In this document: in pieces, positions 862 through 36,274 of the stretch
Numbering within the stretch: position 1 is the first letter of the stretch
Layout: each line of letters opens with the position of its first letter
DNA from: an uncultured Lachnospiraceae bacterium
Lineage (GTDB): Bacteria > Bacillota > Clostridia > Lachnospirales > Lachnospiraceae
Assembly (NCBI GenBank): GCA_949949005.1
Contig: CATLHM010000001.1
Span: forward strand, 1 to 64,000
Length of the DNA stretch: 64,000 nt
Direction of reading: 5' to 3'
Translations under genes and position numbers: made by a program
The notes under the pieces: generated by a model
The model's database searches: none
What the model saw: the letters and a program-made list of their open reading frames with translations, nothing else
What the model was told of the DNA's origin: nothing

Positions 862-2980
862 GTTTTTATTAGAAATTACCTTACAGAGCGATATGTGTGT
901 GTCTGATGGAGGGGTATACAATAGCAGTGTAGACATAGATGTCTGCCATGATGAAAATGGTTTTCCCTATATTCCTGCAAAGCGTATCCGTGGCTGCTTA
1001 AGGGAATGTGCGATTGAACTGCGGGACTGGGGAATGGATAGTCCATGGGAGAAGATGTTCGGAGACAAGGGCGACAGTGCAAAACGGGCGGCAGTCCGTA
1101 TCGGTGATGCACATTTGAAAGAATTCCGCGAAAAGGACAGACTGGTGAAGAAAAATACCGGTAAGACAGTATTCCATCCCCAAAACATTTTGAACCATTT
1201 TGCATATACCAGAACCCAGACAGCCATCAATCATGAGACAGGTGTGGCAGAACCTACTTCTTTGAGGACAATGCGCGTTGTTGCCAAAGGAACGGTTTTT
1301 ATTGCCGAAATAAATATGGAGCCTTCTTATGAAGAGACTTTGAGAACCTGCTGTGAAGTTTGGCACAATATGGGGGTGTCCAGAACCAGAGGGCTGGGAG
1401 AAATTAAGGTTTCTTTGGAGCCGGTAAATAACAGGGAAGAAGAAAAAGAACATGCGGCATATCAAGAGGGGGCAGAAATTCTGTGGTATCAGCTTCAGTT
1501 GGAAGAGCCGGTGATCTGTAAAAGCGTCAACGGGCAGGAGGCAAGAACCCTGGATTACATTGAGGGAAGTAAGATGCAGGGGCTTTTGCTGGAAAATGTT
1601 GCTTCCAGAGAAGAAGTTATCTGCATGATCGGCAGTGGTGAATTATTTTGTTCCAATGCCTATATTTCTATAAACAATATCCGGGGAACGGAAGTACCGG
1701 CTTATATTCATGCGGTAAAAAATGATGAAAACCATTATGTGAATGGGTTATATCCGGATCCCGATTGTGTAAAAAACGAACATCTGCAGTTAAACAGAAT
1801 GAAACACTGTTATGTATACATTGATGAGAAGCAGAAGCTGCATAGGGAAAAGGTTAGGATTGAAGAACGTTATCATCACCGCAGGCCGGAGGATAAAGGG
1901 ATCGGGCGCGCATCAGAGGAAGAAAATGGTGACAGCCAGTTCTACCAGATGTCTTCCATTGAAGCAGGACAGACGTTTCAGGGATATTTTGCAGGAACGG
2001 CAGATCAGATAAAGACAATCTATAACATTCTTTCCCAACGTGGGATATATCATATCGGATATTCCAGAAGCTCAGAATATGGCAGAGTCCGGCTCAGGAT
2101 TACAGGCATGGAAAAAAAGCCTCAGCCAATCAGAAGAAAGACGAAAAACTTTTGCGTAAAACTGGAAGCACCGGCTATTGTATATAATAAAAATGCATTT
2201 TACTCCACCAATGCGGACGATTTGATTGAGGAAGTAAATGTTGTGTTAGGCATTTCAAAGGATATGCGGGCCGATATCCGAAAGTATGTCCAGTATGTTG
2301 TCCTGGGCGGCTACAATGTCACCTGGAAATGTCCGAAGCCTGTCATTGTGGCTTTTGAAAAGGGAACCGTTCTTTCTTATTCGCTGCCCTTTGAAACGGA
2401 ACTTACGGTTCCGCCCGTCTTTTTAGTAGGGGAACGAGTGACGGAAGGTTATGGGGAGGCCTCCATCCATTTTTTGGATGACATGGAAAGTACCCAGGGG
2501 CTGCTGGAAATCAGTGACGACCGGAAAGGACAGCCGGAAGGCCTTGTAGACGCAGCGGAATCTGAGTTTACCTACGCATTGTGCCGGGAGTTATTTCAGG
2601 ATTATGTACAGATGAAAGCGGCACAGGATGCGAAGGGAAGCGGATTTGGTTTAGAGATAAGGCCGACCGTCAGCAATATGCTCCTGATGTGCTATGAGAA
2701 TAAGGACTTTGAAAGCTTAAGAAATGTCTGTTATGAGCGATATGGAAAAAATACGGATGATAAAGAAAAAAAATTACGCTATGCAAACGAGATATTGGAG
2801 AAAGTGGAAGAGGGAGCGGAAAGAATCGTGGAATATTTTGCCGGCCAATACCACATTGATCATTTTACAGTTGAGGCCAATACAGTAAAAATGCTTTATC
2901 TGGACAGCTTCCTGAAACAGTTGAAGTATAATTTCCGTCAGGCAGAAAAGGAAGAGGGAGGCGAGGAAAATGAGCAATAG
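854..2980 (+). CDS. csx10: Csx10-like RAMP protein of type III-D CRISPR (Cas5 family)
   Basis: This 708-residue RAMP-superfamily protein should be the Cas5-like subunit that caps the crRNA 5' handle in the type III effector. Visible RAMP features are an N-terminal strand LLEITLQSDMCVSDGG, the IPAKRIRGCLRECA segment near residues 40-55, a glycine-rich GVSRTRGLGEIKV near 175-187, and a second GYSRSSEYGRVRLRI near 395-410, implying at least two ferredoxin-like modules. It starts with an ATG that overlaps the cas10 remnant by 8 nt and it overlaps the next gene by 11 nt, so translation is probably coupled. Assignment to Csx10 rests on the opening motif and on the company of csx19-like and TIGR03986-like genes, which is typical of subtype III-D. 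Confidence 0.75.
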   Translation: MNKFLLEITLQSDMCVSDGGVYNSSVDIDVCHDENGFPYIPAKRIRGCLRECAIELRDWGMDSPWEKMFGDKGDSAKRAAVRIGDAHLKEFREKDRLVKKNTGKTVFHPQNILNHFAYTRTQTAINHETGVAEPTSLRTMRVVAKGTVFIAEINMEPSYEETLRTCCEVWHNMGVSRTRGLGEIKVSLEPVNNREEEKEHAAYQEGAEILWYQLQLEEPVICKSVNGQEARTLDYIEGSKMQGLLLENVASREEVICMIGSGELFCSNAYISINNIRGTEVPAYIHAVKNDENHYVNGLYPDPDCVKNEHLQLNRMKHCYVYIDEKQKLHREKVRIEERYHHRRPEDKGIGRASEEENGDSQFYQMSSIEAGQTFQGYFAGTADQIKTIYNILSQRGIYHIGYSRSSEYGRVRLRITGMEKKPQPIRRKTKNFCVKLEAPAIVYNKNAFYSTNADDLIEEVNVVLGISKDMRADIRKYVQYVVLGGYNVTWKCPKPVIVAFEKGTVLSYSLPFETELTVPPVFLVGERVTEGYGEASIHFLDDMESTQGLLEISDDRKGQPEGLVDAAESEFTYALCRELFQDYVQMKAAQDAKGSGFGLEIRPTVSNMLLMCYENKDFESLRNVCYERYGKNTDDKEKKLRYANEILEKVEEGAERIVEYFAGQYHIDHFTVEANTVKMLYLDSFLKQLKYNFRQAEKEEGGEENEQ

Positions 2981-4283
2981 GGTTAACCCAATTGTAAAGA
3001 GAGTTTATTATGCAGCAGAAGTCCTATTACGCTCCCCGCTGGCAATTTCGAATGGGGAAGGTGAGACGACAGATATGGATGTTTTGCGGAACAGGAAAGG
3101 GGAGCCTTTTATTCCGGGAACATCCATTGCAGGGGCATTTCGCAATTTTCTGCTTAAGAAAAAAGATGAGGATTGCAGCTTTGGCTTTTCCAGGGATGAG
3201 GATGGCAGAATGAGTTCTGTCTGCATTTCTGACTTCTATTTTAAAGGAAAGCCTGTGATTACAATAAGGGATGGGGTAGAGCTTTCTGATGGTAAGCAGG
3301 TTCAAAATAAATTTGATATGGAAGTAATAGAAACCGGGGCGAAAGGCGTACTGTATTTTAACTATGTGATCCGTGAGAACAGCCCGATTTTTGATGCGGA
3401 CTGTGAGGCGGCCCAATTATTCTGTGGGATGGAGCGAGGAGATATTCGATTTGGCAGTAATAAAAACAGGGGATTTGGAAGACTGGCGTTGGGAAAGATT
3501 TATCGGTCTGAGTTTACGCGGGAAAATCTGAAGGAATGGATTTCCTTTGGTAAGGAGTTAAGGGAGGTTTCTGCTTATCAAAGTGAAGAAGAATATAAAG
3601 CATGGATGCAGAACCGTCAGACGCCGGAAGAAAAGTATTACAGAATAATAATCCCATTGAAGCTGACCGGAGGAATCAGTATTCGAAGGTATTCTGCAGA
3701 GCCGATGAAAGCAGATTTTGAGCATATCACATGCAATGGGGAGTCGGTAGTTCCGGGGACAAGCTGGAATGGGGCGATCCGGGCAGATGTAAAAAATATT
3801 CTTTTGCAGCTTGGATGCAGCGACTCAAGGTGCGCGCTTTTATTGAACAAGTGGTTTGGATATGTAAAGGTGAAAAAGAAATCTGGTTTTTCAAAGAAAC
3901 AAAAACCGGATGCGCAGCAGTCCTGCGTGGTAATCGGGGAGAGTATTATCCATGGTACAGTACGTGTGCCAATGACCAGAAATAAGATCAGCCGGTTTGA
4001 TGCTTCGACCATAACCAGTGCGCTTTATTCAGAAATCACAAGCTGTGGCGGGGAGACAGAACTTGAGATCATGGTAAAAAAAGATGCTATATATTATCAT
4101 GCGCTTTTGGCCGTTCTGGAATTGGCCGTGCAGGATATCTGTAAAGGTTACGTGGCTGTCGGAGGACAGACAGCGGTAGGGCGGGGGATTTTTAGGGGAT
4201 CATCGGACGGATTTTTAGAGGAAAAGATAAGAAAACAAGGGCAGCAGGAACTGATTTATCTGATAAAAGAGAGGGAGAAGTGA
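2970..4283 (+). CDS. Cas7-like double-RAMP protein (type III effector backbone)
   Basis: This 437-residue protein has two Cas7/Csm3-like RAMP halves. The first has IPGTSIAGAFRNFL (near residues 47-60) and the glycine-rich loop RFGSNKNRGFGRL. The second has VPGTSWNGAIRADVKNIL and the loop VGGQTAVGRGIFRG. Proteins of this kind polymerise along the crRNA and often carry the aspartates that cut target RNA; which aspartates do so here cannot be decided by eye. It overlaps csx10 by 11 nt and the next gene begins 3 nt after its stop, so all belong to one transcription unit. The fusion of two Cas7 copies is known in type III-D and III-E relatives. Confidence 0.75.
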   Translation: MSNRVNPIVKRVYYAAEVLLRSPLAISNGEGETTDMDVLRNRKGEPFIPGTSIAGAFRNFLLKKKDEDCSFGFSRDEDGRMSSVCISDFYFKGKPVITIRDGVELSDGKQVQNKFDMEVIETGAKGVLYFNYVIRENSPIFDADCEAAQLFCGMERGDIRFGSNKNRGFGRLALGKIYRSEFTRENLKEWISFGKELREVSAYQSEEEYKAWMQNRQTPEEKYYRIIIPLKLTGGISIRRYSAEPMKADFEHITCNGESVVPGTSWNGAIRADVKNILLQLGCSDSRCALLLNKWFGYVKVKKKSGFSKKQKPDAQQSCVVIGESIIHGTVRVPMTRNKISRFDASTITSALYSEITSCGGETELEIMVKKDAIYYHALLAVLELAVQDICKGYVAVGGQTAVGRGIFRGSSDGFLEEKIRKQGQQELIYLIKEREK

Positions 4284-4286
4284 CAG

Positions 4287-4676
4287 ATGAGGTATATGGA
4301 TTTAACGAGAGTGGCGGAAGCGCCCGGATGTGGGCAAATGCTTGCGTATACACGGAAAAAAGTGATTTTTCAGCCCTATAGTAATCTCGGGGAAGTGAGA
4401 GATGTGTTGGCAGATACTGAACTATTGGAACTGCATCTGTTTGACGGGCAGAAGGAATACCGCTCCATTGCTTCCCGCAGCCTGCGGTTTGAGGGTGGTA
4501 GGATTGAGGCTGTTGCACAATTTCCGGCGGATAGGGAAAGGGATGTTTATAAAGAAACTGTAATGCTGGAGAAAGAATTTGGCGCGAAGATTATGGTTTT
4601 GAACCATATTCACTATGATGAATCTAACGGCATGGCGGATATTGACAATTATCGTTTAAGAATGGGGGATGAATAA
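4287..4676 (+). CDS. csx19: Small type III-D accessory protein, Csx19-like
   Basis: This 129-residue protein lies between two RAMP genes, with its stop overlapping the next start (TAATG). No motif allows firm naming. Csx19 (TIGR03984) is a small protein encoded at this position in type III-D operons, next to the TIGR03986 RAMP protein, and the LLELHLFDGQKEYRSI region is compatible with it. It may be an accessory or small subunit of the effector. Position supports the assignment more than sequence does. Confidence 0.5.
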   Translation: MRYMDLTRVAEAPGCGQMLAYTRKKVIFQPYSNLGEVRDVLADTELLELHLFDGQKEYRSIASRSLRFEGGRIEAVAQFPADRERDVYKETVMLEKEFGAKIMVLNHIHYDESNGMADIDNYRLRMGDE

Positions 4677-6712
4677 TGGGCGCCAACAATAAAGAGTACA
4701 CTTTTGTGAATCCATATAACTTTATTCCGCTGGGAAAGGGGCGATCGTTTGTAAAAGAGGAAAGCGGGAAGAAGTATACAGGCGTGATAAACTACACTTT
4801 GAAGACAGTAACCCCGCTGTTCATACCAAATACCAGAAGTGAAGATGCATTTAAGATGTTGAAAAAATATGAAAAGCATAAGTCTTATGATTTTTTTTCC
4901 TATAGAGATTTGTCGGAGTTAGAGGATTCCGTGGAAAAAGAACTTCCCAAACCGGTGATACCGGGAAGTGAAATGCGGGGAATGCTCCGGAATAATTATG
5001 AGATACTGACAAATTCCTGCATATCAGCGGTGGATGATGAGACATTGCTCAGCAAGAGAACGCAGGAAAAATATAAAGCTGGCCTGTTGGAACGCCGTGT
5101 AAGCGTAAAGGATGGAAAAGAAGAAGTCAGATACCGTTTGATTAATGTAAGAGATGACTGTCTGCTGCGGACAGAGGGAGCAAACAATCTGACGGATGCA
5201 TTGGGGTGCTGGGATGAAAAGCCGGGCATGAAAGGAAGAAGGGAGTGGGGGATTAAGTGCTATATCCAGGATTCTCTTTCAGAGGGCGAAAAAGTGGCAT
5301 TCGATTATAAGGGACGTGACAGAGGCAAAGCCCTTGCATTGAATGTAGAAAAGGCAGAAAAGGAGAATCTTGGCCGTAGCATTGGATATCTCCTGAAAGG
5401 TGAGACAGGCCCGGAGATGAAGAATCCTTCTACCGGTTTGCCAGCCAAACAAAATAAACACTGCGCCCATGTGTTCCGTCAGCCTGATGATGTGGATAAG
5501 CAGGTGATCCGTGTCTGTAGAAACGAGGATTTTAGTCAGGACTATCTGACCGGTATTTTGGATGTTGTCCTGAAATTATATGACAAAAACAAGGCGGGCG
5601 CATATGGAGAATACAGGACAGAATACGAAAAGTTTAAGGAAGGCAAAGGAAATCAGTTCTTTCCGGTGTATTACAGCACACTTTCTTACAGCGGGAACAA
5701 AGTGGACAGCCTGATGTTATCCCCTGCATGTATTACCCGGGAGATTTATACGAGAATGCTCTCGGATATGGTAGGGGATAAAAAGTCCTGTGAAAAATCA
5801 GGGAAACTATGCCCGGCCTGTGCTTTGTTTGGCACATTCAGGGACGGGAAAGAAAGTGTTGTGTCCAGAATACGTGTGGCGGATTTGGAATGTCTGGAGC
5901 AGGATAACCGTAAATGTTTTGATGCCGCCCCGGTTACGTTACAGCCTCTTGCACAGCCAAGGTTTAATCCGGAATTTTATATGAAAAAACCTGATAAGGA
6001 TGCCGTATTTTGGACATATGAATATTACGTGGACAGCAAGGGGCATGTCCATAAGAATATGGCTGGAGTCAATGGGCGCAAGTTTTATTGGCATCATGCG
6101 GATTTTAAAATGGAAAATTGCACTGCAGAACCAAACAAGATGAACAAGACGATCCGGCCTTTGAAAAAAAATATTTACTTTCTGGGCAAGATTTATTTTC
6201 ATGATCTTTCAGAGCGAGAATTGAATACTTTGTGTTATTTGGTGAATGCCGGAGACGATGAGGAGTTGGACAAGAAGCATCACGGATATAAATTGGGCGC
6301 GGCAAAACCTCTGGGATTTGGAAGTGTGGCGATGCAGATCAATAACGTGCAACTTCGCCAGATTGTACAAACAGAAAATGAGACAATTGATTTGAAGGAG
6401 ATTCCATATCAACCGGATAAACAGAATACGCTGGTGGATTCTCAGGTTGTGGAAGATTTTCAGAAGATGACAGATTTTAAACTGTTGAGCGGTGAAAACG
6501 TCAGCTATCCAAGAAGACATCCGAATGACGATATTTTCGGCTGGTTTGCAGCAAACCATAAGGGATATTCTAAAAATAAAAAGACAGGACAGAATAGGTT
6601 CGTTAACATGCCGCAGTCCAGAGACACTATGTTGTTTGACCAGTATTTAAAACCAATGGAGCCGAAAACGGTCACTAATGAATTAGGAACAAAACTTTCT
6701 ATAAAAAATTAA
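4676..6712 (+). CDS. TIGR03986-like type III-D CRISPR RAMP protein
   Basis: This 678-residue RAMP protein has KPVIPGSEMRGMLRNNYEIL near residues 92-110 (the usual Cas7-type G-S-x-hRG segment) and a Cys-rich CPACALFGTF loop near 381-390, followed by SRIRVADLE. A C-terminal glycine-rich KLGAAKPLGFGSVAM is near 542-556. These features and the length fit the TIGR03986 family found with csx10 and csx19 in subtype III-D, where such proteins act as a large Cas7-type subunit. It is the last gene of the operon. No T-rich terminator hairpin is obvious downstream, where a palindromic repeat and a MITE-like element follow. Confidence 0.75.
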   Translation: MGANNKEYTFVNPYNFIPLGKGRSFVKEESGKKYTGVINYTLKTVTPLFIPNTRSEDAFKMLKKYEKHKSYDFFSYRDLSELEDSVEKELPKPVIPGSEMRGMLRNNYEILTNSCISAVDDETLLSKRTQEKYKAGLLERRVSVKDGKEEVRYRLINVRDDCLLRTEGANNLTDALGCWDEKPGMKGRREWGIKCYIQDSLSEGEKVAFDYKGRDRGKALALNVEKAEKENLGRSIGYLLKGETGPEMKNPSTGLPAKQNKHCAHVFRQPDDVDKQVIRVCRNEDFSQDYLTGILDVVLKLYDKNKAGAYGEYRTEYEKFKEGKGNQFFPVYYSTLSYSGNKVDSLMLSPACITREIYTRMLSDMVGDKKSCEKSGKLCPACALFGTFRDGKESVVSRIRVADLECLEQDNRKCFDAAPVTLQPLAQPRFNPEFYMKKPDKDAVFWTYEYYVDSKGHVHKNMAGVNGRKFYWHHADFKMENCTAEPNKMNKTIRPLKKNIYFLGKIYFHDLSERELNTLCYLVNAGDDEELDKKHHGYKLGAAKPLGFGSVAMQINNVQLRQIVQTENETIDLKEIPYQPDKQNTLVDSQVVEDFQKMTDFKLLSGENVSYPRRHPNDDIFGWFAANHKGYSKNKKTGQNRFVNMPQSRDTMLFDQYLKPMEPKTVTNELGTKLSIKN

Positions 6713-6753
6713 TCTATTACGTTCAGATATTAGTGAATGGACTATGAGTGACT

Positions 6754-6802: not shown

Positions 6803-6887
6803 TCATAGGGTGCTGGTTGAGAAAATTGAACTGGCAAAATCGGAGCAAAAGGTACTTAAGATCATATTGAAGATCGTGATGGAAAAA

Positions 6888-7031: not shown

Positions 7032-7117
7032 ATACGATTTGGTGATCTGACAGAAGATTTTTTAGAAATCAGTCAGTAGCAAAAAGATATCGGATATACG
7101 TAACTTGAAAATTAGAA

Positions 7118-7276
7118 TTGAAAACCAGGGGGATGGGCGGTATAATAACGAAAGAGGGAAATTTGTAGAAAAACCCAAAAATCTCTTTAAAAAGCACTAT
7201 TGTCAGAATATTCTGGCAATTACATGCAGAAATAGCTCCTGGAACCATTGATTTTAGTGGGCTTGGGAGAGATACC
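7118..7276 (+). promoter_or_regulatory. CRISPR leader 1: promoter plus near-palindrome
   Basis: TTGAAA (7118-7123) is separated by 17 nt from TATAAT (7141-7146), a near-consensus housekeeping promoter. Then follows the 20-nt near-palindrome TTGTCAGAATATTCTGGCAA (7200-7219), 57 nt before the first repeat. The same layout recurs before the other three arrays, so this is the leader that drives pre-crRNA transcription and probably marks the spacer-integration end. Confidence 0.8.
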
Positions 7277-7385
7277 GTAGAAATGAGAAAAGCCCGTTTA
7301 GGGCATTGACACATTTCCGTACGCTCATTTTAATCTCCTTTACAGTACAGTAGAAATGAGAAAAGCCCGCTTAGGGCATTGATGT
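7277..7385 (+). CRISPR. CRISPR array 1 (two repeats, one spacer)
   Basis: A 36-nt repeat beginning GTAGAAATGAGAAAAGCCCG and ending GGGCATTGACAC lies at 7277-7312. A 37-nt spacer follows (7313-7349), then a terminal repeat from 7350 that diverges in its last bases. The repeat can fold a short GCCC-GTTTA-GGGC stem. The leader on the left sets transcription rightward. Confidence 0.9.
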
Positions 7386-7491
7386 ACGGTAGCAATTACA
7401 ATATCAGATTTTTAGTATTTGCGAGAACTGTTGTTAGAGAGCGCAGGGATCCTTTTGAGATTTCATCTCACGAGGCGGATATTACCCGGGA

Positions 7492-7581
7492 ATGGGTGAT
7501 GCAGTTATGGCTTTACAGGCAAAAGCCGAAGATAATGGTGTTGTTGATATGAGTTTGGACGGTATTACCAGTATTATTTGA
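7492..7581 (+). pseudogene. Antitoxin C-terminal fragment in the 7386-7850 gap
   Basis: A short frame ends with ALQAKAEDNGVVDMSL and then a stop. This resembles the C-terminal ALYEVSDMAQKNGTSGMTLEEI region of the intact antitoxin at 7851-8168, suggesting a decayed earlier copy. Nothing else supportable was seen in 7386-7850 except promoter-like TATAAT boxes just before 7851. Confidence 0.35.
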
Positions 7582-7850
7582 TCCAGACCGGACATATGAT
7601 AACAGAGATTTTGGAGTCATGGGAACAAATATGGGGAAGGGGAGGATGCAAAAAGAAGCCGAAAATTGAATAGGAGAAGCCAAGAGAATACCCTGCGATT
7701 GCCGAAGCCGCCGCAAGGTTTTTTATATTTTTATTCTTCTTTACCCATCCCATCTGTCAGAGTCCATGCTTTTTGTATATTGGCACTTAAAACGCTGTAC
7801 TATATAATACAAATAGGGTTATAATAACTACAAACAAAGGAGCATTTATC

Positions 7851-8168
7851 ATGGCAACATCTGTTATGCAGTTTCGTGTTGACGACGAATTAAAGGCACA
7901 GGCTACCGCCGTATGTGAAAATTTAGGGATTGATCTTCCAACTGCACTTAGAATGTTTATGAAGCGAACGGTTCTTGTTAATGGTATTCCATTTAGTATG
8001 ACTTTGCCTAAACAGGACTTCAAGGTTCAGCGGGCAGTCCGGGCATTGTATGAGGTTAGCGATATGGCTCAAAAAAATGGGACTTCAGGCATGACTTTAG
8101 AGGAAATCAATTCTGAAATCGAAGAATCCCGAAACCAACGTAGGCTAGAGGGAGAAGAACAGGCATGA
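7851..8168 (+). CDS. RelB/DinJ-family antitoxin
   Basis: This 105-residue protein opens with a ribbon-helix-helix domain: MQFRVDDELKAQATAVCENLGIDLPTALRMFMKRTVLVNGIPF is spread over residues 6-48 and matches the RelB/DinJ pattern. The C-terminal half (ALYEVSDMAQKNGTSGMTLEEIN) would wrap and neutralise a toxin. AAAGGAG lies 9 nt before the ATG. Its stop overlaps the start of a PIN-type toxin gene by ATGA, as in an addiction module, but that toxin is frameshifted. Such antitoxins usually repress their own promoter. Confidence 0.85.
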   Translation: MATSVMQFRVDDELKAQATAVCENLGIDLPTALRMFMKRTVLVNGIPFSMTLPKQDFKVQRAVRALYEVSDMAQKNGTSGMTLEEINSEIEESRNQRRLEGEEQA

Positions 8169-8580
8169 GGTATTATGCAACTATTGATACAAATGTTCTG
8201 GTTTCAGCCATGTAAACGCCGACTCTATCCCTGGAAAGATTGTAGAAGAAGCTTTATCAGGTGAGATTATCCCACTGTACAATGAAGAGATCATTGCAGA
8301 ATATAACGATGTTCTCAGAAGGCAGAAATTCAGATTTGACAGAAATTCCGTCCACTTTCTTGTAGACACTATTATAAGCCGAGGTATTCTTATTGATGCT
8401 GGAGCAGTGGATGATATTCTTCCAGATGCATCAAATGTCATATTTTATGCTGTTACAATGGAGAAACGAAAAGAAAATGAGGCGTACCTTTTAACCGGAA
8501 ATTTAAAACATTTTCCCAGCAGATCATTTATTGTCACTCCATGGGAAATGCTTGAAATAATGAGAAATAACGGAGCTTGA
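8165..8580 (+). pseudogene. PIN-domain toxin, frameshifted
   Basis: The gene opens MRYYATIDTNVLVSAM, which carries the first acidic residue of a PIN nuclease, then hits TAA at 8213. From 8215 the sequence continues in another frame with NADSIPGKIVEEAL, LYNEEIIAEYNDVLRR, LPDASNVIFYAV and LLTGNLKHFPSRSFIVTP to a stop at 8578-8580, which is the rest of a PIN toxin. A small indel near 8211-8215 therefore breaks the toxin while its antitoxin stays intact. PIN toxins are RNases. Sequencing error is possible, but the second module nearby is broken too. Confidence 0.8.
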
Positions 8581-8765
8581 TGGAAAGTCTCTGCTTATAC
8601 TCTATCTTTTTGCGGTGAATCATGTCAACAAAAAGCAAAAATGCAATTACGGATTACCGATAAGTCCACATGGACTCTCCTTCCTTTCCGCCAACACAAA
8701 TTCGGGTACCTCACAAGGGAATAAGGGGCAATGAAGACATTTATGGCTTTCCTTATAGGTTTTAA

Positions 8766-8924
8766 TTGAAAACCTAGAAAGTAGGTTGTATAATAAGAAA
8801 GCAGGAAAATATTTTGAAAAACCAAAAAAACTGTTGAAAAAGCATTATTGTCAGAATATTCAGACAATTACATGCAAAAATGGTTCTCGAAACCCTTGAT
8901 TTTAGCGGGTTTGGGAGAGATACC
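8766..8924 (+). promoter_or_regulatory. CRISPR leader 2: promoter plus near-palindrome
   Basis: TTGAAA (8766-8771), 17 nt, TATAAT (8789-8794), then TTGTCAGAATATTCAGACAA (8848-8867), 57 nt before the first repeat. Box spacing is the same as in leader 1. The gap 8581-8765 before it shows nothing supportable. Confidence 0.8.
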
Positions 8925-9256
8925 GTAGAAATGAGAAAAGTCCGTTTAGGGCATTGACACCCTTCATGCTTGTAAACATCATCTCCAGGTTTCTTTGCGT
9001 AGAAATGAGAAAAGTCCGTTTAGGGCATTGACACATACACTAATGGTTCCATATGATTGGCTTTGCCACCAAGTAGAAATGAGAAAAGTCCGTTTAGGGC
9101 ATTGACACAAACCACTTGCCTATTCCAATAAAGTGGAATTTCGCAAAGTAGAAATGAGAAAAGCCCGTTTAGGGCATTGACACCGAAATCCGTTTTCATA
9201 CAGCATAGGAATCTGCACCAGTAGAAATGAGAAAAGCCCGTTCAAGGCATTGACGC
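8925..9256 (+). CRISPR. CRISPR array 2 (five repeats, four spacers)
   Basis: Repeats lie at 8925, 8999, 9073, 9148 and 9221, each 36 nt; spacers are 38, 38, 39 and 37 nt. The first three repeats read AAAAGTCCG instead of AAAAGCCCG, which keeps the hairpin by a wobble pair. The last repeat is degenerate (TTCAAGGCATTGACGC), marking the leader-distal end. Transcription is rightward from leader 2. Confidence 0.95.
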
Positions 9257-9428
9257 ATGATAAACATTGCCGATTGTATGTTCATCAATAAAAACTCGTA
9301 TATTATGCACATAATATGTTGACACTATGAAACAATTTGCGTATGCTAAACAAAGAGCAGTACACGGAATGAGTTGTTCTTATGTTAATAATAGGAAAAA
9401 GGTATGTATAAAAGTGGAGGTGTATAAT

Positions 9429-9707
9429 ATGGCATCTGTGACGAATTTGAACATACGAACAGAGAAAGCGGTGAAGGAAGCGGCAGAGAATATCTTTGCA
9501 GAACTTGGACTGAATATGACTACGGCGGTAAATATGTTTTTAAGGCAGACAATACGGGAAAATGGCATACCTTTTTCTTTAAAGCTGAATACGCCAAATG
9601 AAATAACAATGGCTGCCATAGAAGAGGGAAGACGGATTGCTGCTGACCCGAATGTAAAAGGGTATAAGAGTCTCAGTGATTTAAAGGAGGCTCTAGATGA
9701 TATATGA
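9429..9707 (+). CDS. RelB/DinJ-family antitoxin (second module)
   Basis: This 92-residue antitoxin starts at the ATG preceded by GTGGAGGTG. The N-terminal ribbon-helix-helix (VTNLNIRTEKAVKEAAENIF, then GLNMTTAVNMFLRQTIRENGIPFSL) is typical of DinJ. The C-terminal part (MAAIEEGRRIA, YKSLSDLKEALDD) is the toxin-binding tail. An upstream in-frame extension to 9327 is unlikely because the ribosome site fits 9429. It overlaps the start of a truncated YafQ/RelE-type toxin. It should act as repressor and antitoxin, but its toxin looks non-functional. Confidence 0.85.
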   Translation: MASVTNLNIRTEKAVKEAAENIFAELGLNMTTAVNMFLRQTIRENGIPFSLKLNTPNEITMAAIEEGRRIAADPNVKGYKSLSDLKEALDDI

Positions 9708-9831
9708 AGTTAAATTCACCAACCAGTTCAAGCGGGATTTGAAATTGGCGAAAAAACAGGGAAAAAATATTGATAAGCTTTTCGATGTAATCAGTACCAT
9801 TGCAGAAGGTAAAAAATTGGATGAAAAATAA
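9697..9831 (+). pseudogene. YafQ/RelE-type toxin, truncated at 44 codons
   Basis: The frame starts in the last codons of the antitoxin and reads MIYEVKFTNQFKRDLKLAKK, then IDKLFDVISTIAEGKKLDEK and a stop. Full YafQ toxins are about 90 residues and continue after this point with the catalytic half; the downstream bases do not restore it. YafQ is a ribosome-dependent mRNA endonuclease. The missing half should abolish activity. Confidence 0.8.
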
Positions 9832-9886
9832 GTAACTTTTTTAAAAAGAAAACGCATTATAAAGAATTATTTTTTCGTCCAACAAA

Positions 9887-10035
9887 TTGAATTTTCGCCC
9901 AGTATAAGAAAACAGAAAAATATTTTGAAAAACCAAAAAAACTGTTGAAAAAGAATTATTGTCAGAATATTCAGGCAATTACATACAAAAATGGTTTTTG
10001 AAACCCTTGATTTTAGCGGGTTTGGGAGAGATACC
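9887..10035 (+). promoter_or_regulatory. CRISPR leader 3 with a damaged promoter
   Basis: The near-palindrome TTGTCAGAATATTCAGGCAA (9959-9978) is again 57 nt before the first repeat. The promoter is degraded: TTGAAT (9887-9892) and TATAAG (9903-9908) are only 10 nt apart instead of 17. This array is probably weakly transcribed or silent. Confidence 0.65.
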
Positions 10036-10198
10036 GTAGAAATGAGAGAAGCCCGTTTAGGGCATTGACACCATTTTTGTCGGTACACTACGGTGCATGC
10101 GCGCAAATAAGTAGAAATGCGACAAGCCCGCATAAGGCACAGAGAAAATTCCTAACACAACTTCATCCCCTACATTTCCCCCGTAGAAATGAAGAACC
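10036..10198 (+). CRISPR. CRISPR array 3 (decaying)
   Basis: One good repeat lies at 10036-10071 (GAGAGAAGC variant). A 39-nt spacer follows, then a degenerate repeat at about 10111-10146 (AAATGCGACAAGCCCGCATAAGG), another spacer-length stretch, and a remnant at 10183 that keeps only GTAGAAATGAAGAA. Repeat decay increases away from the leader. Confidence 0.75.
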
Positions 10199-10242
10199 CA
10201 CCCCCATTCATCGCGCCACCTACACGAAGAGAGGCACACCCC

Positions 10243-10787: not shown

Positions 10788-10915
10788 TAAAATGCGCTTA
10801 CTGAGATACTAGACATAAATCCAGAGTACAAGTATACGGATAACAGTGTGAAATCAGAGATTTTACCATCCTGATTTGTACGCCCGCCGGGGCGGGCAGA
10901 TGGAAGCTGGCATGA

Positions 10916-10984
10916 AAGGATAACACTCTGGCGCAGCGGGCAGCAGGTTATCTGAAAGAACACGGAGGAAAAGGGACAAAATGA
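10916..10984 (+). pseudogene. Tail of a lost gene before the CARF gene
   Basis: A 22-codon open stretch (KDNTLAQRAAGYLKEHGG and on) ends in a TGA that overlaps the ATG of the CARF gene as ATGA. That overlap is typical of operon neighbours, so it may be the 3' end of a deleted upstream gene. A GCCCGCC-GG-GGCGGGC hairpin lies just upstream at about 10882-10897. The rest of 10788-10915 shows nothing recognisable. Confidence 0.25.
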
Positions 10985-12540
10985 ATAAGAACCTGGCAGA
11001 AAAAACACAGCAGTGGAAGCAGTTAGAGAGAAAAACATTTGAGCAGAGGCAGATTGCAGATGAATTTTATGAGAGAAATCTCATGAAACTGATTGAGGAG
11101 GATTTTATAGACAGGAATAAAGCAAAGGTATTTGAGAAGGTAGAATATCTGGTGGCGTCGGTGGGAACCTCCTATGAGCCGATCGTGCTGAATATCAGAC
11201 TTCTAAGGCCAAAGCGGATTTTGTTTCTGCATACGGCAGAGACGGAAAGCACGTTGAGCAAGATCGTGAAATATTGTGAGCTGGAAGTGGTGGAGTATGA
11301 AAAACGCAGGGTAAGTGAGACCAGCCCGCTGGACATTTATCAGGAGATCAAAAGAAGCTACATTGACTGGGGAAAGCCGGGAAAGATGTATATTGATTTT
11401 ACCGGAGGCACCAAGGCTATGTCGGCAGCAGCGGCCATGGCCGGAGCCATGATCGATGTGCAGTTGGTATATGTGGGATCTAATGATTACCTTACGGATT
11501 TCCGTAAACCAAATCCGGGTTCGGAAACCTTATTTTATATTGACAATCCGCTTGCCGTATTTGGGGATTTTGAGATAGAAAAGGCATTGGCTCTGTTTGA
11601 AAGGTATAATTACGCGGGCGCACAGGAAAAGCTGGGGGAGCTGAAGGAAAATATACCGGATCCGGCTATCCGGCAGCAGATGAATTTTGTGTATCTGCTG
11701 GCCAAGGTTTATGAGGCATGGGATGCGCTGGACTTTGGGGAAGCATTTGTGCAGATCAGGAAGCTGAATCACCAACTGCGCAGGGATCGGATGATGCACG
11801 ATACTTTCCTGTTGATGGACTGCTATGAATGTCTGGAAAAGCAGGAGGAAATATTGAGGTATTTGAATGAAATACCGGAGATGCTCAAAAAGAGACAAAA
11901 TGCTGAGATTATCAAATCAAAAAGCATCATGCACGCGCTGATGTTCACCATGTACCAAAGCGCCTGCATCAGGGAGAAGCAGGAAAAGTACGATATGGCG
12001 ACACTACTTTTTTACCGGCTGCTGGAAATGATAGAGCAAAGGAGAATGTCCCATTATGGCCTGTATGTATCCCAGATGAACTATGCGGAAATAAAATACG
12101 ATAAAAAATATCAGCCTGCCTATGGGGAACTGGATGCCAAGGGACAATTTGAGCTCTTCAAGGGGAAGGTAAAAGAGATAAAGGCGGAGCTGTTTGGGCG
12201 GCCGGGAAATGAATATCTGCCGGAGCAGGTTTCTCTTCTGGAAGGGTTTATTATGCTGATGGCTCTGGGCGATCCGATTATCCATATCCAGGGGAAAAGG
12301 GAGATCGATAAGCTGAAAAGAATCCGGTCTATGGTATATTTGAGAAACAACTCTATTTTTGCCCATGGGCTTGGGCCGGTCAGCTATGGCGATTATACCA
12401 AATTTAAAAACTTTGTTCTGGAAATATTCCAGAGCTTTTGCGTGGTAGAGAGGGTCAGCTATCAGACCTATGCCAACAATATCAAGTGGATCAATCCTCT
12501 CAAGTCAAAGAATTACGTGATGGGAATGGGAGGGAATTGA
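10981..12540 (+). CDS. CARF-HEPN CRISPR accessory protein (TIGR02710-like)
   Basis: This 519-residue protein has a CARF-type Rossmann domain: EYLVASVGTSYEPIVLNIR at residues 55-73, KRILFLHT at 78-85, and the ligand-loop signature DFTGGTKAMSAAAA at 139-152, followed by VQLVYVGSNDY. The C-terminal region carries RNNSIFAH (R455-x6-H462), the RNase motif of HEPN domains. Family knowledge: CARF domains bind cyclic oligoadenylates made by Cas10 and switch on the HEPN RNase during type III immunity. GGAGGAAAAGGGAC precedes the ATG. Its stop overlaps the cas1 start by one base. With cas10 truncated here, its activator would have to come from another Cas10, or it has another role. Confidence 0.8.
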   Translation: MNKNLAEKTQQWKQLERKTFEQRQIADEFYERNLMKLIEEDFIDRNKAKVFEKVEYLVASVGTSYEPIVLNIRLLRPKRILFLHTAETESTLSKIVKYCELEVVEYEKRRVSETSPLDIYQEIKRSYIDWGKPGKMYIDFTGGTKAMSAAAAMAGAMIDVQLVYVGSNDYLTDFRKPNPGSETLFYIDNPLAVFGDFEIEKALALFERYNYAGAQEKLGELKENIPDPAIRQQMNFVYLLAKVYEAWDALDFGEAFVQIRKLNHQLRRDRMMHDTFLLMDCYECLEKQEEILRYLNEIPEMLKKRQNAEIIKSKSIMHALMFTMYQSACIREKQEKYDMATLLFYRLLEMIEQRRMSHYGLYVSQMNYAEIKYDKKYQPAYGELDAKGQFELFKGKVKEIKAELFGRPGNEYLPEQVSLLEGFIMLMALGDPIIHIQGKREIDKLKRIRSMVYLRNNSIFAHGLGPVSYGDYTKFKNFVLEIFQSFCVVERVSYQTYANNIKWINPLKSKNYVMGMGGN

Positions 12541-13550
12541 TGGCGGTTTTGTATATTAAGGAGCAGGGAGCGGTAATCCAGAAGCTGGGGGAGCGCATTG
12601 CGGTCAAAAAGGGAAATGAAACCCTTCTGGAATTTCCAGTGCTTCATGTAGAAAACATGGCATTGATCGGGAATGTCCAGATTACGGCACAGGCTTTGCA
12701 CATGCTGATGGAAAAAGGAATTGATGTGAGCCATTTTTCCTATTCGGGAAAATACCTGGGGCAGACAGCAGCGGATGCATCAAAAAATATTTTTTTGCGG
12801 TTTGAGCAATACAGCTTTTACCTTGATATTGAAAAAAGAATGGAAATGGCCAGGCTGATTGTGGCTAACAAGATTGAAAATCAGATTGCGGTAATCCGGG
12901 AACACTCATGGCGGGGAAGCGATTATGAGTGGAAAAAGGATGTAGGGCAGATGGAACAGTACATACAACAACTGCCGGATAAGCGGACGTCTAACGAGAT
13001 ATTGGGAATAGAAGGGATCTGTAGCAATATTTATTTCCGGGCATTTGGTCAGATGTTAAAATGTGAGTTCCCTTTTCAGGGGAGGAACCGAAGGCCGCCG
13101 AAGGATCCGGTAAATGTACTCCTCAGCCTTGCTTATACTTTCCTTACCAAGGAGGTATGCAGCGCGCTGGAGGCAGAGTCCTTTGAACCGTATCTGGGAT
13201 TTCTGCACGGAATCAGGTATGGGCGCAAGTCGCTGGCGTTGGATATGATGGAAGAATTTCGCCAGCCGGTGGTGGACAGGCTGGTGATTCTTCTTTTTAA
13301 TAAACGGATGATAGGAAAATATGATTTCGACATTCCGCAGGATGGGCGCATCCTTTTAAATGAAGACGGGTTTAAGAAATTCTGTACGGAATATGAGCGC
13401 TGGATGAGCGGAAGGAATACGGCCAGTGGGGAGAAATCCTTTCGCCGATGCATTAGAGAGCAGATTGCCGCACTGAAAAAAGCGGTGAGCGAGAAAGGGC
13501 AGTATCAGCCGTATAGCTGGGGAAAGCGTCATGTACCTGATCAGTTATGA
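12540..13550 (+). CDS. cas1: Cas1 spacer integrase
   Basis: This 336-residue Cas1 has an N-terminal beta domain (MAVLYIKEQGAVIQKLGERI) and a helical catalytic domain. Metal ligands are visible as E158 in LGIEGICSNIYF, H223 in FLHGIRYGR, and D235 or E238 in SLALDMMEEFRQPVVDR. Cas1 with Cas2 captures prespacers and integrates them at the leader end of CRISPR arrays. The start at 12540 overlaps the CARF stop (TGATG) and is preceded by GGGAGGG. The 3' end overlaps cas2 by 20 nt. Cas1 is not fused to the reverse transcriptase here; that is encoded two genes downstream. Confidence 0.95.
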   Translation: MAVLYIKEQGAVIQKLGERIAVKKGNETLLEFPVLHVENMALIGNVQITAQALHMLMEKGIDVSHFSYSGKYLGQTAADASKNIFLRFEQYSFYLDIEKRMEMARLIVANKIENQIAVIREHSWRGSDYEWKKDVGQMEQYIQQLPDKRTSNEILGIEGICSNIYFRAFGQMLKCEFPFQGRNRRPPKDPVNVLLSLAYTFLTKEVCSALEAESFEPYLGFLHGIRYGRKSLALDMMEEFRQPVVDRLVILLFNKRMIGKYDFDIPQDGRILLNEDGFKKFCTEYERWMSGRNTASGEKSFRRCIREQIAALKKAVSEKGQYQPYSWGKRHVPDQL

Positions 13551-13815
13551 CATAACGGATAACAGAATACGGGGAAAAATCGCAAAGGAGCTATCCGGAT
13601 ATGGGCAGCGTGTCCAGTACAGTGTGTTTGAGTGCAGGATCACAGAACAGCAGTATAGAGAGCTGTATCAGAAGCTGGTGATCCTGATGCAGGAGGAAGA
13701 GGAAGGAAATATCCGTATTTACAATATATGCGGAAAATGTGAGCAAAAGCTGTGTACCATCGGTATTGAGAGCAGGGAAATGGCCTTGGATAAGGATGAA
13801 TTGATTATTATTTAA
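13531..13815 (+). CDS. cas2: Cas2
   Basis: This 94-residue Cas2 has the ferredoxin-like opening MYLISYDITDNRIRGKIAK with the conserved Asp in SYDITD, and QRVQYSVFECRIT. It forms the Cas1-Cas2 complex that measures and positions prespacers. It starts inside the end of cas1 and is followed after 33 nt by the RT-primase gene, so the three form an adaptation operon with the CARF gene. Confidence 0.95.
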   Translation: MYLISYDITDNRIRGKIAKELSGYGQRVQYSVFECRITEQQYRELYQKLVILMQEEEEGNIRIYNICGKCEQKLCTIGIESREMALDKDELIII

Positions 13816-13848
13816 TGGTTTTTAACATATACGGAGATTTAGAAAAGG

Positions 13849-16650
13849 ATGAGCTTATATAATAAAATTATTGATTTACAGAAACTGTCACAGGCATGGA
13901 AAGAAGCCAGAAAGAACCATCCGGCAGCAGGTGTGGACAACGTTACCTTTGAGGAGTTTGAAGAAAGGAAGGCGGAAGAAATACGTCAACTGCATCAGGA
14001 ATTGAGGGAACACAGGTATCGTGCGCTCCCGGTGAAAAGGGTGATCCTGTATAAAGGCGAAAAGGCCCGTGAGATTGCGCTGTATGCCATGCGGGATAAA
14101 GTGGTGCAGAGGTCATTGGAGGCTGAGCTTAAGAAGCTGTATGAGGGGCAGTTTTCTCCGCAGGCCTTTGCGTACAGGAGCAGTAAATCCGCCTTGAACG
14201 CTGTGAATGAGATTGACCAAAGGATCAAGTCCGGCAGGTATTCATGGGCGCTGCGGCTGGACATTTCCGGCTTTTTCGATTCCATACAATGGGAAAAGCT
14301 GGAGGGAATGCTGAAGAAAAACATCAAAGAGGAGGACGTCATTTTTCTTATAGAAGAGAATTGTAAATCGGTAATGCTGGACGAGGGCGGCGGGCTGATA
14401 GAAAAAAAGATGGGGATTTATCAGGGCAGCGCGGTATCGCCGACGCTATCCAACATTTATATGATGGATTTTGATGATCAGATGACAAAGGGGGCGGCAT
14501 ACTATGTCCGTTATTCGGATGATATGCTCCTTCTTGGAAAGAGCAGGGAAGAGCTGCTTGAAGAATGCGTAAAGGTGAAGGCAGGACTGAGCCGTCTTGG
14601 GCTTTGTCTAAACGAGGGGAAAACAGTGTGTGCGCCCCTTGAAGAGGGTGTCGATTTCCTTGGCTATCATTTTGGAACGACTGGTATGGCAATTCCGGCA
14701 AAGGCTGAACGGAATCTGGAAGAACGCCTGGAGACCATGTGGCTCACTTCTTCCGAAAAAACAATAGAAGAGAAACTAAAGAGCGCATTGGAAATCGTGG
14801 GAGGCTGGGAGCAGTATTTCCGCGGAGAAAGAGAAGTACACAGTATTTTCGAGTATATTGTGCTGATGCGGTTTTCCGGTAAAAAGAAAGAAGGGCTGAC
14901 AAACCAACGTCGGGAGCTATCCAATTACTGTAAGGATATTGCAGTTTATCTTGCAAAGATCTGGAAAGAGGAAGGTGAGGAAGCCTTGGAACTGTTGGAA
15001 TACGAACAGTTTTACCAGATTTGGACATTGCAGGGGGCGGGGCAGAAAGCGCATGACAATTTAAAGGAGCTGCTGGATTTATACAGGAGTTATATCATAC
15101 AAGAAAATGCAGATACGGCAGTGGAGCTCATGCAGTTATATACCGACAGAGGGGAGTACCAAAAGGCCGCATTCTGGCAGAAGCAGAGCGAGCATTTGGA
15201 GAAAAAGGCATATGGCACAGGCAGTCATGTGATACTGCCGGACAACGGTGAGACATCTATTTCTTTCGACCGTTCCAGCGCGGAAAAAATACTGAATCTG
15301 TTTGTGGGGAGGGAAGATATTTACAGCAGTGAGGAAATAGGCAGCGGAGGTAAAAGGCAAAACGAAATTCAGGCATATCCGCTGACGGCCCAGAAGCTTT
15401 ATGAGCATTTATGCGGAAAAGTTACCCTGGGAACCTACGTGCAGCGTTCCAATGGGACAGTGCGTTATATTGTGACGGACATTGATGTCTCGAAAAAGGT
15501 ACTGTTGCAAAACGAGAGGGGAAGCGTGGAGTACAGGGCGTATCTGGAAAAAGCGCTGCAAAAGGCCAATGAGGTGTTGGAGCTTTACCGTGAATTTGGA
15601 ATGACCGGATATATCGAGTATTCCGGAGGGCGCGGCTACCATGTCTGGCTTATTATGACGCAGTGGATACCGGTTCGGTATGCGAATATGTTTTGCGACG
15701 TGGTAGAGAGCAGGCTGGGAAAAACAGAAGAGGGGATAGGGATAGAGTTTTTTCCCAATAAAACGAGACTAAAGCCAGGCAAATTCGGACAGGCCATAAA
15801 GCTTCCCTGGGGATTCCATATGAGGACAGGTGAGAGGTCTTATTTTTTGGACGATAGCGGAAACAGGGTGACGAACGTTAATCTGTTTCTGGACAGCCTT
15901 GCAAAAAATTCGCTGGGAGCTTTGAAAAAGGTTCTGGCAGTGAATCTGAAAGAAAACGACAATGCAGGTGAAAAAAAGATAGAAACAGATTTGAGCGCTT
16001 ATCAGGACACTCCGGAAAATGTCCTTGAAGTCCTTAAGGGATGCAGCCTGATGGGATACCTTTGCAACAAAGCGGCCAAGACGGGATATTTGACGCATTT
16101 TGAGAGACTGTCAATTTTATACGTTTTTGGGCATTTAGGAGAGGATGGAAAACAGTTTGTACACACCGTCATGTCGCATACTCTAAATTATCAGTATAAT
16201 ACCACGGAACGCTTTATCCGGCGGATTCCGGAAAAGCCGGTAAGCTGCATCAAGCTCAGGGAGCAATATAAACAGATTACTGCGGAATACGGATGCAACT
16301 GCGATTTCAAAAGGAGTAAAAACTGCTATCCCTCCCCGGTGCTCCATGCCATTTTGCTTTCCAATGATCTGCAAAAGGATGTTACCATACCGACCAGCCG
16401 CACGATCACGAATGAAAAAGAAAAAAAGATAGTAGAAGAACTGAATGTCCACAAAAAGGCGCAGGAGCTGGCGGAGAAAATACTGGAACTGAAAAAGCAA
16501 AAACGGAGCATCGATGCTTCTGTATTAAAGATAGAGAAGGAATTGGAAAAGCTGTTTGATCTTGTGAGGGCAGATTGTCTCGAAATCGAATTGGGAATGC
16601 TGGTCCGCAGAAAAAAGGAGGCAGGGTATGAGTGGCTGATTGAGATTTGA
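13849..16650 (+). CDS. Reverse transcriptase-primase (RT-AEP) fusion of the CRISPR adaptation module
   Basis: This 933-residue protein starts with a group-II-like reverse transcriptase: GVDNVTFEEFEE (28-39), AYRSSKSALNAV (108-119), motif A LRLDISGFFDSI with D138, motif B YQGSAVSPTLSNIY (191-204), and YSDD (222-225) in place of the common YADD. A helical, TPR-like linker follows (about 400-450). Then comes an archaeo-eukaryotic primase-polymerase domain: YIVTDIDVS with catalytic D544/D546, YSGGRGYHVW with H598, and AIKLPWG near 649-655. The C-terminal part has C732, C739, C800, C816/C818 and C826, compatible with a PriL-like iron-sulfur or zinc site. RTs next to Cas1 allow spacers from RNA, and CRISPR-associated prim-pols are linked to adaptation. 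A single chain could prime and extend on RNA or DNA, which is inference. The gene ends 130 bp before leader 4. Confidence 0.9.
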   Translation: MSLYNKIIDLQKLSQAWKEARKNHPAAGVDNVTFEEFEERKAEEIRQLHQELREHRYRALPVKRVILYKGEKAREIALYAMRDKVVQRSLEAELKKLYEGQFSPQAFAYRSSKSALNAVNEIDQRIKSGRYSWALRLDISGFFDSIQWEKLEGMLKKNIKEEDVIFLIEENCKSVMLDEGGGLIEKKMGIYQGSAVSPTLSNIYMMDFDDQMTKGAAYYVRYSDDMLLLGKSREELLEECVKVKAGLSRLGLCLNEGKTVCAPLEEGVDFLGYHFGTTGMAIPAKAERNLEERLETMWLTSSEKTIEEKLKSALEIVGGWEQYFRGEREVHSIFEYIVLMRFSGKKKEGLTNQRRELSNYCKDIAVYLAKIWKEEGEEALELLEYEQFYQIWTLQGAGQKAHDNLKELLDLYRSYIIQENADTAVELMQLYTDRGEYQKAAFWQKQSEHLEKKAYGTGSHVILPDNGETSISFDRSSAEKILNLFVGREDIYSSEEIGSGGKRQNEIQAYPLTAQKLYEHLCGKVTLGTYVQRSNGTVRYIVTDIDVSKKVLLQNERGSVEYRAYLEKALQKANEVLELYREFGMTGYIEYSGGRGYHVWLIMTQWIPVRYANMFCDVVESRLGKTEEGIGIEFFPNKTRLKPGKFGQAIKLPWGFHMRTGERSYFLDDSGNRVTNVNLFLDSLAKNSLGALKKVLAVNLKENDNAGEKKIETDLSAYQDTPENVLEVLKGCSLMGYLCNKAAKTGYLTHFERLSILYVFGHLGEDGKQFVHTVMSHTLNYQYNTTERFIRRIPEKPVSCIKLREQYKQITAEYGCNCDFKRSKNCYPSPVLHAILLSNDLQKDVTIPTSRTITNEKEKKIVEELNVHKKAQELAEKILELKKQKRSIDASVLKIEKELEKLFDLVRADCLEIELGMLVRRKKEAGYEWLIEI

Positions 16651-16780: not shown

Positions 16781-16939
16781 TTGAAAATGGAATAGGATAA
16801 GAATATAATTGTAGTAACAGCTAAATTCCGAAAAGACAAAAAAATGGCCTGAAAAGTGTAATTGTCAGAATATTCTGGCAATTACTTGCAAAATCAGAGC
16901 CTGAAACCATTGATTTTACTGGGGGTGCGGAGGGGGAGC
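16781..16939 (+). promoter_or_regulatory. CRISPR leader 4: promoter plus near-palindrome
   Basis: TTGAAA (16781-16786), 17 nt, TATAAT (16804-16809), then TTGTCAGAATATTCTGGCAA (16862-16881), 58 nt before the first repeat. The palindrome is identical to that of leader 1. Confidence 0.8.
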
Positions 16940-17485
16940 GTAGAAATGAAGAAAGCCCGTTTAGGGCATTGACACCCTGCATATATTCATATAGGTCCTT
17001 AAATGTCAGATTCGTAGAAATGAAGAAAGCCCGTTTAGGGCATTGACACATTTACAATACCAATATGGCGACATATCCGGTTGATAGTAGAAATGAAGAA
17101 AGCCCGTTTAGGGCATTGACACAGATCATCTTCTGCTGATTTCTTTTTATTATGGATAAGTAGAAATGAAGAAAGCCCGTTTAGGGCATTGACACCTTTT
17201 CATTTGTTTCTTTATTCCTGATGATAATAAAGTAGAAATGAAGAAAGCCCGTTTAGGGCATTGACACACGGTCACTTGGTCGTATACGAGACCCTCTTCG
17301 GTTGTGTAGAAATGAAGGAAGCCCGTTTAGGGCATTGACACGTATCTTCCAGCTCTTTTCGCAGCTTCGACTATTTGTAGAAATGATGAGAGCCCGTTTA
17401 GGGCATTGACACTCTTTCGGCATCGCCTTATACATTGCGTACCAGACTGGTAGAAATGAAGAAAGCCCGCTCAGGGCATTAATAA
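16940..17485 (+). CRISPR. CRISPR array 4 (eight repeats, seven spacers)
   Basis: Repeats start at 16940, 17014, 17087, 17160, 17232, 17306, 17377 and 17450; spacers are 38, 37, 37, 36, 38, 35 and 37 nt. The repeat begins GTAGAAATGAAGAAAGCCCG and ends GGGCATTGACAC, differing from arrays 1-3 in the AAGAAAG block. Repeats 6 and 7 carry single changes (AAGGAAG, ATGAGAG), and the last repeat is degenerate (GCTCAGGGCATTAATAA). It is the longest array and lies next to the adaptation genes. Confidence 0.95.
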
Positions 17486-17498
17486 AGTTTGATCGGAG

Positions 17499-17567
17499 CG
17501 CAGATGCGAAACCGCCTACGCGGATTTCGCACCGCGTTGTCGCAAAAAACGCGGCATGGAGGTTAAA
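17499..17567 (+). promoter_or_regulatory. Two-hairpin 5' leader cassette, copy 1
   Basis: A first stem pairs GCGAAACCGC with GCGGATTTCGC around CTAC (one bulged A). A second pairs CGCGTT with AACGCG. The cassette ends in CATGGAGGTTAA directly before the start codon of the MYG1-like gene. A near copy lies at 36275-36341 before an unrelated gene, with changes that keep the stems. Confidence 0.65.
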
Positions 17568-36225: not shown

Positions 36226-36274
36226 GCGGGGTCTGCGTATGGACGTAATGGGCGGCAAGCGGCCCGGATTGAAT

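Follow-up and report, generated by a model that had tools for sequence, protein, structure and literature searches.

A CART-CAPP-type fusion of reverse transcriptase and primase-polymerase in a type III-D-like CRISPR locus of an uncultured Lachnospiraceae bacterium

Fusions of a reverse transcriptase (RT) with a CRISPR-associated primase-polymerase (CAPP) have been described in two studies. Proteins in which the RT stands N-terminal to the primase-polymerase (prim-pol) domain were classed as CAPP_A type 2, with Caloramator australicus CCJ33120 as the example, and named CAPP-RT in 2021 (Zabrady et al., PMC8211822); the same kind was called CART-CAPP in 2023 (Zabrady et al., PMC10415136), in a classification comprising CART, CART-Cas1, Cas6-CART-Cas1 and CART-CAPP. 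In the portions of these papers on which we draw, such fusions are reported near cas1 and cas2 (both studies), a CAPP interacts with Cas1, and the prim-pol of a CAPP is described as lacking efficient priming on RNA (PMC8211822). Purified CART RT domains prime de novo and extend on RNA and DNA alike, the isolated prim-pol domain of the Caloramator CART-CAPP is inactive, and an RT mutant of a Geobacillus CART-CAPP gives a second example of an inactive prim-pol; the authors call this inactivity unexpected and propose that it is common, the domain being prone to loss of function (PMC10415136). The same source reports RNA-derived spacers for the Cas6-RT-Cas1/RT-Cas1 kind. A term search found the word 'primase' absent from the main text of three older RT surveys (PMC6013744, PMC5513706, PMC5541045). 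Here we describe a fusion of RT and prim-pol (P0001) encoded in a 64,000-nucleotide stretch of DNA (the window; contig CATLHM010000001.1, positions 1 to 64,000) of an uncultured Lachnospiraceae bacterium, together with its relatives.

The window protein belongs to the published CART-CAPP (CAPP-RT) kind. Its open frame (13849–16650, + strand) runs without a stop for 933 residues and places an RT (Pfam RVT_1, residues 69–275, E 8.5e-29) N-terminal to a CAPP-type prim-pol of the archaeo-eukaryotic primase (AEP) type (Pfam AEP-TOTE, residues 504–693, E 4e-27). The NCBIfam profile NF040561, 'CRISPR-associated primase-polymerase type A1', covers residues 396–899 with 249 bits against a cut-off of 200, and the gene shares an operon with cas1 and cas2 within a type III locus. 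A sequence-only reading of this DNA had singled out the combination for biochemical study; with CAPP-RT and CART-CAPP in print since 2021 and 2023, and placed near cas1 and cas2, the idea of a novel system was rejected. Its description of a single 933-residue chain with an RT, a prim-pol and a Cys-rich C-terminus agrees with the profile matches and the predicted model. The protein and its parts are as follows.

13849..16650, + strand: RT-CAPP (CART-CAPP type) adaptation polymerase, 933 residues, from domain matches and model
13849..14853, + strand: RT with N-terminal extension and thumb, residues 1–335, with D138, D224 and D225
14854..15273, + strand: helical linker, residues 336–475, TPR-like by position only
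15274..15948, + strand: prim-pol (AEP) domain, residues 476–700, with D544, D546, H598 and E633
15991..16353, + strand: Cys-rich C-terminal domain (CTD), residues 715–835, with C732, C800, C816 and C818
16462..16647, + strand: C-terminal helix and Gp157-like/TOTE tail, residues 872–933 (PF22709, E 1.6e-18)

Structure prediction and profile searches had been proposed as checks, and for the RT and prim-pol both came out as expected: the RT and prim-pol folds are seen in the model and supported by fold matches, and RVT_1, AEP-TOTE and NF040561 were all matched. The RT is matched by PDB entry 7kft (E 1e-19), and its alignment with group II RTs begins at residues 1–3, so it has an N-terminal extension, which the Caloramator RT is without (PMC10415136, in the portion cited). 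The linker had been called TPR-like; the model shows helices at 333–454, and position 39 of the NF040561 profile falls on residue 396, so that its helical nature stands while the likeness to TPR is one of position. An apparent loss of the third prim-pol acid (Asp to Gly, EEGIG versus EEGID) was considered and rejected: counting to E260 of MsCAPP places the conserved acid at E633, and the catalytic triad is therefore intact. A sequence profile of the CTD and tail gave no meaningful match in the PDB, and Foldseek with both gave nothing at E ≤ 0.001. The CTD model weakly resembles the iron-sulphur (Fe-S) domain of the DNA primase large subunit (PriL/p58C), which likewise has four conserved cysteines. 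The fourth CTD cysteine is spaced unlike that of the eukaryotic primase large subunit, so the cysteines are at most possibly equivalent.

Caloramator CCJ33120 is shorter than the window fusion (713 against 933 residues). Unlike it, Marinitoga MsCAPP and MpCAPP (TPR-type CAPPs, PDB ids: 7nqf, 7p9j) have no RT, and their prim-pols are active in published assays. The Cas6-RT-Cas1 and RT-Cas1 fusions (Marinomonas) share a CRISPR RT with the window, but there Cas1 is part of the RT chain, whereas in the window it is a separate gene (12540–13550) and the prim-pol is fused to the RT instead. The prim-pols of TOTE systems belong to the same Pfam family as that of the window, and the tail model is named after TOTE; one of them (locus L004), without a CTD match, is followed by a helicase with no RT seen, unlike the window fusion.

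Relatives were collected by one profile scan of the genome_contigs set with a prim-pol/CTD alignment, which gave 15 loci. Fourteen complete RT–prim-pol–CTD fusions were compared: P0001, its nearest relative and near-copy L031 (98.7% identical across the protein), L033, L035–L042, L069, L071 and L072. The proteins of L002/L073 and L003 are apparently those of L039 and L042 (their frame lengths and motifs are alike) and were not counted twice; L045, which has a different architecture, was left out of the residue table, and L031 out of the distance test. A family-level search gave strong matches in 5 of 397 genomes, the window's own included (360–609 bits, the next match having 77 bits), and a class-level search, at E 1e-22, in 2 of 391, namely the window's genome and G1100. 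At E 0.001 NF040561 has matches in 9 of 14 control genomes and, at phylum level, in 166 of 398, so only matches above its curated cut-off were counted as CAPPs; these occur in none of the 14 and in three of the 398, own included. Plasmid records gave no match to the CTD and tail of P0001 or L081 at E 1e-3, and 12 of them match the prim-pol–CTD part, all below 60% identity; viral contigs, scanned with the prim-pol and CTD models only, gave 3 distant loci.

The order cas1, cas2, fusion is found in all 10 near-clade loci that show an intact fusion together with DNA upstream of it (the window, L031, L033, L035–L038, L069, L071, L072), and a CARF-HEPN gene lies upstream in all of these save L072. 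Of the four distant complete fusions, L040 has cas1 and cas2 upstream and L041 has them downstream, and L039 has a cas1, cut by the contig end, downstream; no cas1 or cas2 was found with L042, whose fusion sits near a contig end. Four fusions are incomplete (L032, L034, L070 at a contig edge, and L075), and those prim-pol and CTD residues that are present in the first three are intact. At L032 (8196–9535) the cas1 frame is broken, cas2 is truncated and the RT is gone but for its end; at L034 (7427–9355) both cas1 and cas2 are missing, as is about two thirds of the RT. In both the prim-pol and CTD stay open, and both are damaged adaptation modules or assembly faults. The L075 frame (5909–8780, − strand) is broken at an A-run just past the DxD motif into two open pieces, which keep the RT D/D/D and the prim-pol D/D/H and have D instead of E633; a sequencing error, decay and a frameshift signal are all conceivable causes of the break.

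The three RT aspartates, the four prim-pol residues and the four CTD cysteines named above are kept in 14/14 complete fusions, which agrees with the earlier reading of two catalytic centres, seemingly intact, and a C-terminus that may bind metal. In the RT-less CAPPs L043 and L044 the prim-pol D/D/H/E is kept and the four cysteines are not all kept. Mean identity among the 13 distinct complete fusions is 48.7% in the CTD (715–870), 40.1% in the tail, 39.3% in the RT, 36.3% in the prim-pol and 22.1% in the linker, which makes the CTD the best conserved domain on average and the linker the least; none of 140 linker columns is invariant. The prim-pol has 16 invariant columns of 225, all four catalytic residues among them, for which the probability would be 1.8e-5 if columns were equal and independent, the 13 proteins being related. 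RT and prim-pol distances among the same 13 correlate (r 0.912, permutation p 0.0002). The ratio of non-synonymous to synonymous substitution rates (dN/dS) gave values in every segment for two pairs only: 0.036 in the prim-pol, 0.064 in the RT and 0.081 in the CTD for P0001/L031 (98.7% identical, with few changes), and 0.060, 0.049 and 0.025 for L036/L037 (dS 1.0–2.2, near saturation). In these two measurable pairs the prim-pol is under purifying selection like the RT. As judged from sequence, this pattern would not be expected of a domain in general decay, although it does not prove activity; and with the prim-pol residues retained in every complete fusion, the published idea that the domain is commonly dead does not appear to be settled.

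Two relatives carry the RT and the CTD without a prim-pol.

L081 5724-7634, − strand: RT-CTD protein without prim-pol, 637 residues
L088 7185-8816, + strand: RT-CTD protein without prim-pol, 544 residues

The L081 protein (genome G1100, 3 contigs, 99% complete) consists of an RT (residues 6–327, YSDD), a CTD (436–553) and a Gp157-like tail, and its gene lies directly after cas2, with cas1 about 0.5 kb further upstream. The L088 protein (genome G866, 91% complete, 8% contamination) has an RT (YVDD) and a CTD, and its gene lies just ahead of a cas1 that is truncated at the contig end. Both proteins match RVT_1 and the tail in Pfam, the L088 tail at 22.6 bits and so under the cut-off of 27, and neither matches AEP at E 0.01. 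NF040561 matches their C-terminal parts only (profile positions 325–515 with 81 bits in L081 and 353–478 with 62 bits in L088, both below the cut-off of 200). A model of the CTD derived from 15 other proteins gives E 1.5e-29 for L081 and E 1.8e-25 for L088. Among 3257 open frames of 113 loci, a CTD without prim-pol occurs in these two proteins only (seven copies of loci), CTD and prim-pol together in 40 frames and the prim-pol alone in 49, some of them cut pieces. Outside CAPPs, the CTD model has only weak matches, in L045 (E 1.8e-7) and in L048 on a viral contig (E 9.6e-4). Searches with the CTD alignment matched 3 genomes each at phylum level (of 388) and at class level (of 391), and an AEP-TOTE search found no prim-pol in G866 and only that of L075 in G1100. 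The form did not turn up in the searches made of an open-access library, supplements being outside the scope, and its novelty is provisional.

The RT tree supports the near clade at 99, places L081 among the fusions at 27–40 only and pairs L088 with L045 at 70, on long branches. The CTD tree, to which each protein contributed its last 235 residues, with a possible effect of unequal ends, is mostly poorly resolved; in it the L081 CTD groups with those of the RT-less CAPPs L043 and L044 at 99. Because of this grouping the CTD tree favours separate assembly and speaks against simple loss of the prim-pol from a fusion of the window's kind, while the place of L081 among the fusions in the RT tree has weak support. 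The occurrence of RT and CTD together without a prim-pol points to a CTD function with the RT or with Cas1-Cas2. The CTD can thus accompany an RT alone, perhaps as its initiation partner, and the L081/L088 type possibly forms a class of CRISPR-associated RTs of its own. A broader proposal, which we advance tentatively and consider doubtful as yet, is that the CTD is a primase-large-subunit-like Fe-S module serving the RT instead of, or besides, the prim-pol. On this view an RT would have taken over the initiation domain of archaeo-eukaryotic primases, making CRISPR RT-CTD proteins, whether or not they carry a prim-pol, two-part primases with an RT as catalytic core; the prim-pol would be an optional second engine, found in some lineages and absent in L081 and L088.

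On balance, the window fusion is probably a CRISPR adaptation polymerase of the CART-CAPP kind in which the RT primes itself, the CTD aids initiation, the prim-pol contributes a second activity and Cas1-Cas2 inserts the product. By analogy with its purified relatives, the RT would start DNA synthesis unaided on captured RNA or single-stranded DNA and then copy it. The CTD may aid this start by holding the initiating nucleotide or the 5' end of the primer, in the manner of the replicative primases' large subunit, and the prim-pol could add a DNA-templated activity, making the second strand or filling gaps after Cas1-Cas2 integration. Cas1-Cas2 would insert the resulting duplex into the neighbouring array, at its leader end, although the order of the steps is conjectural. 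We favour this mechanism because of the domains, the modelled RT and prim-pol folds, the intact residues, the operon and the selection seen in two pairs, together with the priming by relatives' RTs and the binding of a CAPP to Cas1; the high identity of the CTD, the correlated RT and prim-pol distances and the two relatives with RT and CTD beside cas1 argue for it as well.

The alternative that survives best, though we regard it as possible rather than probable, is the published view of CART-CAPPs, in which the prim-pol is catalytically dead and serves as a scaffold only while the RT does all synthesis. The inactive Caloramator and Geobacillus prim-pols agree with it, as do the two relatives that have no prim-pol and yet stay open, cas1-linked genes. 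It is harder to reconcile with the four catalytic residues kept in all complete fusions, which are related and so not independent, with the presence of these residues among so few invariant columns and with the low prim-pol dN/dS in both pairs; the residue argument is limited in that the two inactive proteins may likewise have intact motifs. The sequence-only reading had proposed that the RT needs a primer, which the prim-pol makes and the covalently linked RT extends on RNA. Two intact centres co-inherited in one chain suit this model, but its premise conflicts with the unaided priming of CART RTs on RNA, and the inactivity of the prim-pol in both CART-CAPPs tested weakens it further (PMC10415136, in the portion cited). 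Since a CAPP prim-pol is also described as an inefficient primer-maker on RNA (PMC8211822, likewise) and relatives without a prim-pol exist, we consider it unlikely.

A further fusion, outside this kind, is the L045 protein (1692 residues, 9902–14977, + strand), which like the window protein unites prim-pol and RT in a single polypeptide and has the weak CTD match given above; its prim-pol precedes the RT, and no match to the window's cas proteins was found within its 21 kb. The label UG10-like (DRT) given to it here goes with the match of the PADLOC UG10 model to P0001. In UG10/DRT the prim-pol comes before the RT and no cas linkage is known. That the window fusion is a stand-alone defence RT of this sort, merely neighbouring cas genes, is very improbable: PADLOC UG10 models do match its prim-pol part and L045 joins the same two domains, but in the reverse order, while the window RT precedes its prim-pol and cas1-cas2 adjoin the fusion in 10/10 near-clade loci, with cas1, with or without cas2, also beside L039, L040, L041, L075 and L081.

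The surroundings of the fusion in the window are these.

13531..13815, + strand: cas2 (PF09827, TIGR01573)
12540..13550, + strand: cas1, unfused, start read as ATG 12540 (PF01867, E 3.8e-92, and sequence)
10981..12540, + strand: CARF-HEPN (Csx1/Csm6-like) gene (PF09670, TIGR02710, PADLOC CARF1--CARF_HEPN)
16781..17485, + strand: leader region and CRISPR array of 8 repeats (36 nt) with 7 spacers of 35–38 nt
7145..10153, + strand: three more short arrays (2, 5 and 2 repeats; 1, 4 and 1 spacers), a leader copy before each
82..6712, + strand: type III-D-like effector genes (Cas10 C-terminal fragment, Csx10/Cas5-like, Cas7, Csx19, Cas7 fusion)

The operon runs CARF-HEPN, cas1, cas2, fusion, with a CRISPR array beside it. 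The cas1 ATG at 12540 overlaps the CARF-HEPN stop, cas2 overlaps cas1 by 20 nt, and the fusion begins 33 nt past the cas2 stop, so the earlier placement of the fusion directly after separate cas1 and cas2, with a CARF-HEPN gene in the operon of a type III-D-like locus, was correct. A promoter-like site (11/12) lies at 16781–16809, in a scan that gave 7 such sites against 11.1 expected in shuffles. Exact cores (23–27 bases) of 3 of the 13 window spacers had no match in viral_contigs. RelB-family antitoxin genes (7851–8168 and 9327–9707) lie between the copied leader and mini-array units of 7145–10153, and a DUF6431 gene (10065–10787), with matches also in L031 and L032, lies upstream of the CARF-HEPN gene. 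The Cas10-like gene at the contig start (1–861) comprises the C-terminal part only, its frame being closed by stops upstream; elsewhere in the same genome, contig C28 has a Cas10d-family match of nearly full length and contig C12 a second cas1. A repeated stretch is found at 17491–17572 and 36267–36346, 18.8 kb apart (57 nt and a 27-nt upstream part, 88% and 96% identical).

How RNA or DNA fragments become double-stranded prespacers is an open question in type III systems. What is new here is the retention of the residues in 14/14 fusions, the selection on the prim-pol in two pairs, the conservation of the CTD and, provisionally, the relatives without a prim-pol. The group offers a clean test, since it contains relatives with an apparently intact RT, prim-pol and CTD and others without the prim-pol, both linked to cas1. 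If the CTD does help the RT to start without a primer, this could yield RTs able to begin copying without primers, and reverse transcriptases and replicative primases would have an accessory domain in common.
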